Part shown: piece after piece, positions 1,238 to 4,380 of the stretch | How positions within the stretch are numbered: position 1 is the first letter of the stretch | Layout of the letters: every line of letters begins with the position of its first letter | Source of the DNA: an uncultured Lachnospiraceae bacterium | Lineage (GTDB): Bacteria; Bacillota; Clostridia; Lachnospirales; Lachnospiraceae | Direction of reading: 5' to 3' | Assembly: GCA_946403625.1 (NCBI GenBank) | Contig: CAMJAP010000017.1 | Span: forward strand, 1 to 43,912 | DNA: 43,912 bases | Made by a program: the position numbers and the translations under genes | The notes under the pieces: generated by a model | What the model saw: only the letters and a program-made list of their open reading frames with translations | Told to the model about the DNA's origin: nothing | Databases searched by the model: none

Positions 1238-1681
1238 TTATTTCTGTGCTTTGGATGCCTTCTTTTTGGCTGGTGTTGTCTGCGGATGAAGCAGGTCTTC
1301 CAAAGTCTTTCCGTTAAAGAACTCATGTACCATAGTATCAAATTCGGACCACATCGGCAGGGTCTGACAACGATCTTTGCGCGAACATTCGTAGTCCGGA
1401 TCGGCCAGGCAGGCCACCGGGCAGAGAGTACCTTCCATCAGTTCCAAAACTTCTCCGATGGAATAGTCTTTCGGCGGACGGACCAGTTTATAACCACCGC
1501 CTTTTCCGCTGGCACCGGATAAGAGTTTGTGTTTCACCAGGTCTTTGACAATGATCTCCAGGTATTTCTTGGAAATCTCCTGACGCTCAGCAATGTCTTT
1601 GAGCGGGATATAGTTGCCGTCGTTGTTCTCTGCCAGATCGATGAGTACCCGCAGAGCATATCTTCCTCTTGTAGAAATCAT
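1238..1681 (-). CDS. Rrf2 family transcriptional regulator (IscR/CymR-like)
   Basis: This 147-residue protein begins MISTRGRYALRVLIDLA, the typical Rrf2 winged-helix N-terminus, and contains GASGKGGGYKLVRPP, the wing of the DNA-binding domain. Four cysteines follow (C87, C91, C99, C105), in the place where IscR holds its Fe-S cluster; CymR, the cysteine regulator of Bacillus, lacks such a cluster set. The last 12 residues are Lys/Ala-rich. The gene is divergent from metY-cysK and separated by a region with two CCTA/TAGG inverted repeats, one over each promoter. From that context it probably controls sulfur assimilation and its own expression. It could respond to Fe-S status, to cysteine or its precursors, or both. 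The start is supported by AGGAGGT upstream. Family call firm, target assignment inferred. Confidence 0.88.
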   Translation of the reverse strand: MISTRGRYALRVLIDLAENNDGNYIPLKDIAERQEISKKYLEIIVKDLVKHKLLSGASGKGGGYKLVRPPKDYSIGEVLELMEGTLCPVACLADPDYECSRKDRCQTLPMWSEFDTMVHEFFNGKTLEDLLHPQTTPAKKKASKAQK

Positions 1682-1755: not shown

Positions 1756-1789
1756 GCCTATTGACATAGTAGGCGAATAATGATATAGT
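1756..1789 (+). promoter_or_regulatory. metY-cysK promoter with overlapping operator-like inverted repeat
   Basis: TTGACA (1761-1766) and TATAGT (1784-1789) are 17 bases apart. The -35 hexamer lies in the centre of the inverted repeat GCCTA (1756-1760), 9 bases, TAGGC (1770-1774). The CCTA/TAGG half-sites match those over the Rrf2 promoter, so the same protein may bind both. Transcription would begin near 1796. Confidence 0.7.
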
Positions 1790-1847
1790 TACATCATCGA
1801 AACAAACAAGATACCTGAATGACAGGATCGGAAAGGAGAGAAGGACG

Positions 1848-1955
1848 ATGGCTCGTATTGCTAACAGACGAATGTATAACATGTGTTGTTGTCGAATGCG
1901 ATACTCCCGGGCATATGAGATGACTGGGGCTGTGGCTGTCTGCCTGCACGCCTGA
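1848..1955 (+). CDS. Cysteine-rich leader peptide of the metY-cysK attenuator
   Basis: This 35-codon reading frame starts 52 bases after the predicted transcription start and is preceded by AAGGAGAG at a good distance (1833-1840). It encodes Met-Ala-Arg-Ile at its start and has three consecutive Cys codons (TGT TGT TGT, 1884-1892) as codons 13-15, with a fourth Cys codon at 1941. The product has no other recognisable feature. Its position between promoter and structural gene, and the competing hairpins that begin 11 bases after the last of the three Cys codons, fit a ribosome-sensed leader peptide that reports charged tRNA-Cys. Seen directly: frame, ribosome site, Cys run. Inferred: function as an attenuation sensor. 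Confidence 0.75.
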   Translation: MARIANRRMYNMCCCRMRYSRAYEMTGAVAVCLHA

Positions 1956-2022
1956 TCTTGGATCGATCCGTATAGAAGGATATGTCATTTTGCCCGGGAG
2001 CTTACCAAAGCCCCGTTTTTTT
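1904..2022 (+). terminator. Transcription attenuator: antiterminator and intrinsic terminator before metY
   Basis: Segment CTCCCGGGCA (1904-1913), inside the leader peptide frame, is perfectly complementary over 10 bases to TGCCCGGGAG (1991-2000). The latter overlaps the 5' arm of an intrinsic terminator: CGGG-A-GCTT (1995-2003, one bulged A), loop ACCA, AAGCCCCG (2008-2015), then seven T (2016-2022). The two structures exclude each other. A ribosome halted at any of the three Cys codons would leave 1904-1913 free to form the antiterminator and so allow metY expression. What prevents the antiterminator when cysteine is plentiful is less clear; CGGGCA (1908-1913) can also pair locally with TGCCTG (1941-1946). 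Confidence 0.75.
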
Positions 2023-2079: not shown

Positions 2080-3363
2080 ATGAGCGATTACAGATTTGAA
2101 ACTTTACAGTTACATGTTGGACAGGAAGAGCCGGATCCGGCCAGCGATGCAAGAGCGGTTCCCATTTACCAGACCACTTCCTATGTATTCCGCAACAGCA
2201 AGCACGCAGCAGACCGTTTCGGCTTGGCAGATGCCGGAAATATCTACGGCAGACTGACCAACTCCACCCAGGATGTGTTGGAGAAGAGAGTGGCAGCACT
2301 CGAAGGCGGTGTGGCAGCACTCGCGGTTGCATCCGGAGCAGCAGCTATCGCTTATACCATCGAAGCACTGGCAGCAAACGGAGGCCATATCGTAGCACAG
2401 AAGACGATCTACGGCGGCAGCTACAACCTGCTGGCTCATACGCTGACACAGTACGGCATCACCACCACATTTGTAGATGCACACAATCTGGCAGAGGTGG
2501 AAGGTGCGATCCGGGACAACACCAGAGCGGTATATCTGGAGACCCTGGGCAATCCGAACAGTGATATTCCCGATATCGATGCGATCGCAGAGATCGCTCA
2601 CAAGCACGGCCTGCCGGTAGTGGTAGATAATACCTTCGGTACTCCGTTCCTGATCCGTCCGTTAGAACACGGCGCAGATATCGTGGTACATTCCGCAACC
2701 AAGTTCCTGGGCGGCCACGGAACCACTCTGGGCGGTATCGTCGTTGACGGCGGCAAGTTTGACTGGAAGGCAAGTGGCAAGTATCCGAACATTGCAGCAG
2801 CAAACCCGAGCTATCACGGTGTATCCTTTGCCGATGTGGCAGGTCCGGCAGCTTTCGTTACCTATATCCGTGCGATCCTGCTGCGTGACACCGGTGCAAG
2901 CATTTCTCCGTTTAACGCATTCCTGCTCCTGCAGGGTATCGAGACACTGTCTCTGAGACTGGAGCGCCACGCAGAGAATACCAAGAAGGTAGTGGAATAC
3001 TTAAGCAAGCATCCGCTGGTAGCAAAAGTAAACCATCCGTCTTTGCCGGATCATCCGGATCACGAGCTGTACAAGAAGTACTTCCCGAACGGTGGTGCAT
3101 CGATCTTTACCTTTGATATCAAGGGTGGTCAGGACGAAGCATGGAAGTTCATCGATAACTTAAAGATCTTCTCGCTGCTGGCAAATGTGGCAGATGTAAA
3201 GAGTCTGGTGATCCATCCGGCATCGACCACACACTCCCAGCTCTCCGAGGAAGAACTGCTGGATCAGGGCATCAACAAGAGCACGATCCGTCTGTCCATC
3301 GGTACCGAGCATATCGATGACATTATTGCAGATCTGGAAAATGGTTTTGCAGCTTTGAAGTAA
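2080..3363 (+). CDS. metY: O-acetylhomoserine/O-acetylserine sulfhydrylase (PLP enzyme)
   Basis: The 427-residue product belongs to the Cys/Met metabolism PLP family, subgroup MetY: O-acetylhomoserine plus sulfide gives homocysteine. The N-terminus [15 protein letters not shown] and the segments SYVFRN and [14 protein letters not shown] are typical. The PLP-binding lysine is K208 in [13 protein letters not shown]. Length is normal for MetY (about 425-430), longer than cystathionine gamma-synthase. The start at 2080 follows AGAGGAGAG; an upstream in-frame ATG overlaps the terminator and is not used. It is the first structural gene after the cysteine attenuator and is followed by cysK, so both sulfide-fixing routes appear to be controlled together. 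Cytoplasmic. Confidence 0.9.
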
Positions 3364-3375
3364 GAAGAGTATAAT
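3347..3375 (+). promoter_or_regulatory. Possible internal promoter for cysK
   Basis: TTGCAG (3347-3352, in the end of metY) and a perfect TATAAT (3370-3375) are 17 bases apart. It would start a transcript near 3382 and let cysK be made without passing the attenuator. The -10 is strong, the -35 moderate. Confidence 0.5.
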
Positions 3376-3447: not shown

Positions 3448-4380
3448 ATGGCAAATATTTACAAGGGTACATTGGGATTGATCGGTAACACTCCGTTGGT
3501 AGAAGTGGTGAATATTGAAAAGGATCTGGGACTGGAAGCAACGGTTCTCGTAAAACTGGAATATTTCAATCCGGCAGGAAGCGTTAAGGATCGTATCGCA
3601 AAAGCGATGATCGAAGATGCGGAAGAAAAAGGACTGTTGAAGGAAGGCTCCGTGATCATTGAGCCGACCAGCGGTAATACCGGTATCGGTCTGGCATCCA
3701 TTGCTGCAGCAAAAGGATATCGTATCATTTTGACCATGCCCGAGACCATGAGCGTGGAGCGCAGAAACATCCTGAAGGCATACGGTGCGGAACTGGTTCT
3801 GACCGAAGGGGCAAAGGGAATGAAGGGCGCCATCGCAAAGGCAGAAGAGTTGTCCAAGGAGATCCCGAACAGCTTTATCCCGGGACAGTTTGTGAACCCG
3901 GCAAACCCGGCGGTACATCGTGCAACTACCGGTCCGGAGATCTGGAAGGATACCGACGGTAAGGTAGATATCTTTATCGCAGGTGTAGGAACCGGCGGTA
4001 CGGTAACCGGTACCGGTGAGTATCTGAAAGAGCAGAACCCGAATGTAAAGGTGGTAGCCCTGGAGCCGGCAGACAGCCCGGTACTTTCCGAAGGTAAGGC
4101 AGGCAGCCACAAGATCCAGGGTATCGGTGCAGGCTTTGTGCCCGATGTACTGAACACCAAGGTATACGATGAGATCTTTAAGGCTCCGAACGATAAGGCT
4201 TTTGAGACTGCAAAATATCTGGCAAAGAAGGAAGGTATCTCTGTAGGCATCTCCTCCGGTGCAGCACTCTACGGTGCCATCGAACTGGCTAAGAAGCCGG
4301 AGAACAAGGGCAAGGTGATCGTAGCCCTGCTTCCGGACAGCGGTGACCGTTACTATTCCACAGCATTATTTACCGAGTAA
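3448..4380 (+). CDS. cysK: Cysteine synthase A (O-acetylserine sulfhydrylase)
   Basis: The 310-residue protein shows the cysteine synthase pattern: [11 protein letters not shown] at the N-terminus, the PLP lysine K47 in [10 protein letters not shown], the substrate loop [12 protein letters not shown], the phosphate-binding glycine loop [15 protein letters not shown] and the SSGAA motif near the end. It makes cysteine from O-acetylserine and sulfide in the cytoplasm. It lies 84 bases after metY, with a hairpin and a possible extra promoter between, and is followed by a strong terminator. Start chosen at ATG 3448 after GAAGGACAAGGAC. Family and reaction are firm. Confidence 0.95.

Follow-up and report, generated by a model that had tools for sequence, protein, structure and literature searches.

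The E. coli trp attenuator is built from control codons, a mutually exclusive antiterminator and terminator, and a protector 1:2 hairpin, and it terminates without translation. For cysteine, the leader uORFs of mycobacteria are reportedly leaderless, going by the title of a 2020 report by Canestrari. Several described systems come close to the present locus. In Rhodobacterales, uORFC-8-2 lies upstream of cysS and contains a uORF with tandem Cys codons and a terminal stem with a U-run, for which ribosome-mediated attenuation by tRNA-Cys charging has been proposed (RNA Biol 2021, PMC8632094). The cysteine leader peptides of Mycobacterium, P. acnes and B. longum were described with no obvious terminator, and Rho was suggested (BMC Microbiol 2005, PMC1262725). 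Attenuation by a His leader peptide has been reported in the Firmicutes for hisS/hisZ of Bacilli (Genome Biol 2010, PMC2965389). In Clostridium perfringens, T-boxes precede cysKE and transporters, with premature termination governed by tRNA-Cys charging, and the authors of that report noted that some clostridia are without cysteine T-boxes and that other mechanisms may exist (PMC2940859). In the literature searched, which was judged mostly by titles and the starts of abstracts, no description of a cysteine leader attenuator was found for Lachnospiraceae or any other Clostridia.

The DNA analysed in the present study, herein called the window, comprises positions 1 to 43,912 of contig CAMJAP010000017.1 in assembly GCA_946403625.1, from an uncultured Lachnospiraceae bacterium (the source genome). 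The window carries, ahead of metY and cysK, a leader with three consecutive Cys codons, which is very probably a ribosome-mediated transcription attenuator that senses the availability of charged tRNA-Cys. The frame, the control codons, the terminator and the covarying antiterminator of a leader-type attenuator are all present. The leader shares with the E. coli trp attenuator the control codons and the mutually exclusive antiterminator and terminator, whereas no protector hairpin was found above shuffled sequences and its untranslated RNA is predicted to read through. Like uORFC-8-2, it has a conserved uORF, tandem Cys codons and a terminal U-run stem. Compared by description, uORFC-8-2 belongs to Alphaproteobacteria, precedes cysS only, has its Cys codons within the first stem and mostly uses UGC (PMC8632094), whereas the present element belongs to Bacillota, precedes sulfur-assimilation and transporter genes, mostly has UGU as the last Cys codon, and its antiterminator strand follows the Cys run. 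In the Actinobacteria leaders, cys genes are likewise preceded by a short ORF that contains a Cys run, there with the Cys near the stop codon (PMC1262725), whereas the present leader has a Shine-Dalgarno sequence, an intrinsic terminator and a covarying antiterminator. Membership in the mycobacterial poly-Cys uORF class was rejected on the basis of the Shine-Dalgarno sequence and intrinsic terminator, the class features being taken from part of PMC1262725 and a title. The His leader of Bacilli is also a case of Firmicutes leader-peptide attenuation in place of a T-box, but, compared by description, it concerns another amino acid, other genes and other taxa (PMC2965389). In the C. perfringens T-box, the RNA reads the tRNA itself (PMC2940859), whereas here the translating ribosome would be the sensor. 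The element would be set apart from these attenuators by its taxon, family, geometry and predicted default.

Anatomy of the metY-cysK leader

The features of the locus, numbered by position in the window, are as follows.

1238-1681, reverse strand: Rrf2-superfamily regulator gene, 147 aa, divergent (TIGR00738, 116.1 bits, above cut-off)
1757-1773, forward strand: palindromic operator-like 17-mer CCTATTGACATAGTAGG over the -35 box, recurring before source-genome leaders
1761-1789, forward strand: promoter TTGACA-17-TATAGT with TG before the second hexamer (11/12 matches)
1832-1838, forward strand: ribosome-binding site AAAGGAG of the leader frame (from sequence)
1848-1955, forward strand: leader peptide ORF, 35 codons, 35 aa, MARIANRRMYNMCCCRMRYSRAYEMTGAVAVCLHA (from sequence; frame conserved in relatives)
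1884-1892, forward strand: three Cys control codons, TGT TGT TGT (from sequence and relatives)
1893-1898, forward strand: near-invariant CGA ATG codons after the Cys run (from leaders found by covariance model)
1904-1913, forward strand: antiterminator 5' strand (A), CTCCCGGGCA (from sequence, covariation and spacing)
1919-1924, forward strand: 5' strand of the second antiterminator helix (B), GATGAC (from covariation)
1984-1989, forward strand: 3' strand of the second antiterminator helix (B'), GTCATT (from covariation)
1991-2000, forward strand: antiterminator 3' strand and terminator 5' arm (C), TGCCCGGGAG (from sequence and covariation)
1995-2022, forward strand: intrinsic terminator (C:D) with T7 (from sequence and fold)
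1881-2021, forward strand: whole element, matched by covariance model R2 (98.4 bits, E 1.3e-21)
2080-3363, forward strand: metY, O-acetylhomoserine sulfhydrylase (TIGR01326, 625.6 bits, above cut-off)
3448-4380, forward strand: cysK, cysteine synthase A (TIGR01139, 460 bits, above cut-off)

The leader ORF ends in a stop codon at 1953-1955. Strands A and C pair over 10 bp with zero mismatches, and C is the one arm shared by the antiterminator and the terminator. The terminator reads CGGGAGCTT-ACCA-AAGCCCCG-T7, with one bulged A and a folding energy of -10.8 kcal/mol, and it was missing from the output of an ungapped terminator scan of the window. The frame, ribosome site, Cys codons, pairing and terminator had been located in an earlier note, and on re-checking the sequence all of these coordinates were exact; as a refinement, the helix 1919-1924/1984-1989 extends the antiterminator. 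The match at 1881-2021 is the sole one in the window at E up to 10, with a model (R2, built from 102 sequences) that was trained on sequences including the window copy.

This leader is not a chance arrangement, given that three Cys in a row are expected with a probability of about 6e-6 per given place at the Cys frequency of the window, that its fold has a z of -2.86 with 2 of 200 shuffles folding as well, that it recurs as a conserved family and that it covaries. The metY and cysK genes are likely on one transcript. A promoter-like TTTGCA-18-TATAAT lies at 3346-3375, at the end of metY, and could serve cysK independently.

Copies, distribution and leader sets

A DNA search of the source genome revealed a second, diverged copy before another O-acetylhomoserine-sulfhydrylase-type gene. 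Covariance model R1 was built from 16 sequences (15 metY leaders and one source-genome paralogue), and the leaders found by covariance model therefore lean to the metY-leader form. With R1, five copies were observed in the source genome, preceding metY, two more O-acetylhomoserine-sulfhydrylase-type genes and two MetQ/NlpA-like lipoprotein genes. The element treated as a single leader in the earlier note is in fact multi-copy and multi-family. R1 matched 27 of 35 sampled genomes of the genus and 49 of 397 of the family (44 of 334 genera), and R2 matched 26 of 392 genomes sampled from the order, 13 of 371 from the class and 5 of 378 from the phylum. These genus-to-phylum samples overlap and include the source genome; counted once, 106 genomes carried a match.

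Among the 30 best-scoring metY matches (the window's included), 15 upstream regions carry an MCC(C)RM leader and 15 do not, and leader control of metY is therefore not universal. Two of the latter regions are L030, which has a degenerate leader still matched by R1, and L011, which is cut by a contig end. The pattern TGYTGYTGYMGNATG, searched in 299 family genomes with 159 matched, was leader-like only in L056 among 30 loci and was dropped for covariance models.

A scan of 84,980 genomes gave at least 118 stretches; its pattern specified nothing beyond the last Cys codon, CGAATG and strand A. The 80 titles among the matches listed include Lachnospiraceae, Saccharofermentans, Ruminococcus/Ruminococcaceae and other Clostridia; Anaerovibrio lipolyticus and Anaerovibrio sp. 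JC8 (Negativicutes) were also matched, and a few titles from unrelated bacteria look like chance. An exact complementary arm of 8 nt was present within 207 nt in 101 of the 119 matches listed, against a random expectation of about 0.3% by simple arithmetic. The remaining 18 are unrelated bacteria, stretches cut by contig ends, or stretches with no exact arm.

For the tests described below, 99 rows found by covariance model and 101 found by pattern were reduced to 154 non-redundant leaders by dropping rows without an in-frame TGY-Arg-ATG, repeats and near-identical leaders. Subsets of these were used for the ribosome scan (139), the terminator and hairpin tests (140) and the fuller fold model (137), the criteria being a long A:C helix starting at 12-16 nt, a T-run or the presence of upstream sequence. 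The leaders found by covariance model were selected by a model containing the UGU positions and the A:C pairs, and numbers from these leaders alone are therefore biased.

Leader frame and control codons

Among the 101 listed pattern matches, an ATG with a Shine-Dalgarno sequence opens the Cys frame in 87 leaders, compared with 1 and 0 for the other frames, and the Cys frame enters arm C in none, compared with 27 and 24. The stop codon of the Cys frame starts 13 to 132 nt (median 31) before C in these leaders, and 80 of them have a further Cys within two residues before the fixed Cys. The Cys residues cluster at the three positions before Arg (-3 to -1). The last Cys codon is UGU in 141 of the 154 non-redundant leaders (82 of 85 in the listed pattern-found part), and UGC is preferred in the 29 long ORFs of the window (138 vs 76). 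Of the 82 readable leaders found by covariance model, 79 use CGA for the Arg that follows the Cys run, and CGA makes up 8.1% of the Arg codons in the same 29 ORFs; a slow codon and an RNA constraint are candidate causes of this near-invariance. The few members without CRM keep Cys codons at a similar distance from A.

Several variations on the leader peptide were also observed. A Cys occurs in the last three residues in 42 of 89 and in 52 of 101 leaders of two sets, often as Arg-Cys-stop (CGA TGT TGA), as in L002:1387-1534 and L007:2842-2986; this ending is absent from the window's own leader. In L122:10989-11121, L143:4564-4699, L130 and L131, an extra stretch like GGCTCATTTGTCATGC (peptide AHLSC) follows strand B, and such stretches are found in several leaders preceding solute-binding lipoprotein genes. 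The leaders of L295, L296 and L298, which precede metN-like ABC genes, read MCM(R/F)RM, with many Met codons and the Cys two codons further from A, and their specificity may have drifted.

Covariation and the terminator

The covariance model gave 102 matches, of which 98 distinct leaders were aligned. In the A:C helix, 92.2% of cells are paired and 8 of 11 pairs show changes on both sides; at one pair, A-U replaces G-C in 14 leaders, and none is unpaired there. The B:B' helix is paired in 75.8% of cells, with changes on both sides at 5 of 5 pairs. None of 500 shuffles reached any of five covariation measures, and the covariation score of 0.230 fell to 0.071 or less when the partner was slid. 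Fitting the alignment to A:C biases it towards this helix; the complementary arms recovered by the pattern scan, which was blind to the arm, are independent of this bias. An A:C helix of 9 or more pairs was found in 142 of 154 leaders compared with 28 of 462 shuffles, a comparison that is not independent because the leader sets were chosen with the arm in view. The earlier note proposed leader-peptide attenuation and an alignment of related leaders, and its reading is supported, since homologous leaders retain both the Cys run and the pairing, with stems that covary through compensatory changes.

The terminator stem has a mean energy of -15.0 kcal/mol compared with -8.5 for shuffles, and a T-run follows C in 133 of the same 140 leaders. 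A B:B' helix of at least 5 pairs occurs in 59% of these leaders and 34% of shuffles. The A:C and C:D folds are mutually exclusive, so that the antiterminator excludes the terminator, and it does so with covariation. A hairpin hiding A (A:B), which looks good by eye, was paired at 0.65 compared with 0.63 in shuffles (140 leaders), and with no excess it is not claimed as a protector. Some single folds also contain a stem that joins the Cys codons to the bases right after them.

Predicted position of the switch

In 117 of 154 leaders, strand A starts 14 nt downstream of the first base in the last Cys codon, and in 147 of 154 this distance is 12-16 nt, a spacing that is partly fixed by the pattern in pattern-found members. 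In toeprint geometry, the ribosome front lies 12 nt beyond the first A-site base. With this spacing, a ribosome that waits at the last Cys codon would have the antiterminator strand directly in front of it, in agreement with the earlier proposal that the leading edge of a stalled ribosome would lie just short of 1904.

In a ribosome scan of 139 leaders, only the RNA ahead of the ribosome was folded, and the front was set by the 12-nt toeprint geometry. With the A-site on the last Cys codon, P(A:C) averaged 0.86; one codon further on it was 0.56, after two codons 0.19, after three 0.01, and from there on 0, and the mean P(C:D) rose from 0.07 up to 0.65. P(A:C) last exceeded 0.5 at 0, +3 or +6 nt in 128 of the 139 leaders and at an earlier position in 6; in 5 it never did. 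In the window, P(A:C) was 0.94 for each of the three Cys codons in the A-site, 0.75 for CGA, 0.46 for AUG and 0 beyond; P(C:D) past the switch was only 0.4-0.5. According to ahead-only folding, the switch would thus sit at the last Cys codon.

In a fuller model in which RNA behind the ribosome may also pair (137 leaders), the mean P(A:C) was 0.67 with a stalled ribosome, 0.57 with no ribosome and 0.45 with the ribosome at the stop codon, so that stalling would change little in this model; in the window, the value was near 0.96 in all three states. When pairing across the ribosome was forbidden, with the ribosome on the stop codon, P(C:D) was 0.67 (133 leaders). The dependence of the attenuator on ribosome position would therefore hold in the simpler model only. 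Since the window's ribosome-free and stop-codon folds favour the antiterminator, termination with ample cysteine would depend on kinetics or on A:C being blocked by a ribosome. Either a ribosome between A and C, or following ribosomes, would block A:C in time, or termination with ample cysteine would be partial. These models also predict read-through when the leader is untranslated, which refines the earlier reading and is opposite to the textbook trp attenuator.

Downstream genes and the operator-like promoter sequence

Cys/Met enzymes and parts of amino-acid transport systems account for 210 of the 230 distinct downstream proteins, chance matches being included in the total. With clusters named from their representatives, the 230 comprise 124 Cys/Met PLP enzymes, 73 solute-binding lipoproteins, 7 amino-acid ABC permeases, 3 CysK, 3 MetN-like proteins, 3 peptidases and smaller groups. 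In the source genome, the second and third O-acetylhomoserine-sulfhydrylase-type genes fall below the TIGR01326 cut-off, and the two MetQ/NlpA-like genes fall below NCBIfam cut-offs, one of them passing Pfam's NlpA cut-off and being fused to a family-3 solute-binding domain. Such a fusion is encoded, behind a Cys leader, by the source-genome gene at L122:11125-12885. The gene behind leader L105:1501-1645 encodes a glycyl-radical enzyme, and the N-terminal 220 aa of this enzyme have their best match in HpsG, a sulfopropanediol dehydratase (286 bits, below the whole-protein cut-off), hinting at sulfonate use.

The operator-like 17-mer occurs before the five source-genome leaders with 0, 0, 0, 1 and 4 mismatches, overlapping the -35 box in the first four and, in the last, being within reach of shuffled 600-nt upstream regions. 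Genome-wide, five sites have up to 2 mismatches, of which four are leader promoters, and the reversed pattern gives one. The fifth site, on contig 30 with 2 mismatches, falls within a frame of 310 codons and was taken as chance. Similar operators were also seen at a number of relatives' metY promoters. The divergent Rrf2-type gene scores 84.9 bits against the CymR model NF047409, below its cut-off of 195, and our guess is that this Rrf2/CymR-like regulator binds the operator. The operator stands without an MCC(C)RM leader at the metY of L006, L013, L031 and L032, and a leader stands where no operator was found in L008, L016, L017, L019, L021 and L023; thus, the promoter and attenuator tiers look separable.

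Discussion

Herein, we propose a mechanism on the basis of the observed anatomy, conservation, covariation, gene association, exclusive folds and computed switch position; leader translation, stalling and regulation by cysteine are what we infer from them. RNA polymerase would start near 1796, as judged from the promoter position, and translation of the leader peptide would begin at 1848. Under a shortage of Cys-tRNA, the ribosome would wait on the Cys codons with its front ending just before 1904. Strand A would then be free to pair with C, helped by B:B', so that the terminator would be blocked and metY, and probably also cysK, would be transcribed. When Cys-tRNA is plentiful, the ribosome would pass over A to the stop codon at 1953, A would be unavailable when C emerges, and C would pair with D, ending transcription near 2022.

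Several other explanations have to be weighed against this attenuator. The peptide CRMxxSRA might itself arrest the ribosome for cysteine, a thiol or another signal, instead of tRNA-Cys charging, and CRM and S(R/Q)A do recur across families, though the pattern partly demanded them. However, strand A itself encodes S(R/Q)A, which becomes SQA upon A:C compensation, members with a Cys run but without CRM exist (CCCSNIFRA, CCCMNITRA, CCQSIHSRE), the residues before the Cys run vary, and the Cys codons cluster at -3 to -1 as tRNA sensing expects; an arrest peptide is therefore regarded as improbable. A metabolite-binding riboswitch with an incidental short frame seems decidedly improbable, since conservation of the frame, ribosome site, Cys run and stop position far exceeds that seen in the other frames, the sequence from B to B' is mostly variable except for CGAUGUU, and no Rfam family matched at gathering scores in the window or 16 related loci. 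The conservation of about 140 nt of RNA that includes an expression platform, the near-invariant UGYCGAAUG and the frequent CGAUGUUGA at the end of the leader would suit such a riboswitch, and the conserved CGAUGUU and the fuller fold model weigh a little in its favour.

A leader that regulates nothing, with an ordinary terminator, a chance frame and control exerted only via the Rrf2-type operator, has very little chance of being correct: the alternative helix covaries, frame and spacing are conserved, and leaders also occur where the operator was not found. This is so even with four of the five source-genome copies sharing the operator-like promoter at 0 or 1 mismatch and with some relatives' metY having the operator without an MCC(C)RM leader. 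A T-box for tRNA-Cys, as in C. perfringens cysKE, would perform the same physiological task, and the source genome has four T-box candidates beside other genes, all below Rfam's cut-off. These precede what we take to be trpB, asnS, aspS and trpD, and presumably none serves Cys. For the leader itself, RF00230 gave zero matches in the window or the 16 related loci at the Rfam gathering score, the more permissive source-genome search omits the leader site, and the specifier loop and T-box sequence are absent, leaving a T-box with almost no chance of being the right description.

Within the attenuator reading, we tentatively raise a further possibility, which on balance is doubtful, that the element is a distinct attenuator class, ancient in Bacillota, which has no protector hairpin and reads through by default when untranslated. 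In this class, the ribosome would act as a timed mask, with UGU-CGA-AUG and the 14-nt spacing setting its front at A, so that translation would be needed for repression and not for induction.

The fixed spacing offers a clean test of a ribosome front gating an antiterminator. In the source genome, leader-peptide attenuation for cysteine would operate alongside T-box candidates for other genes. If the attenuator reading is true, a cysteine regulon would be readable directly from sequence, and many rumen and gut Clostridia and some Negativicutes, where a system of this kind was not found described in the literature searched, would possess a tRNA-Cys sensor.
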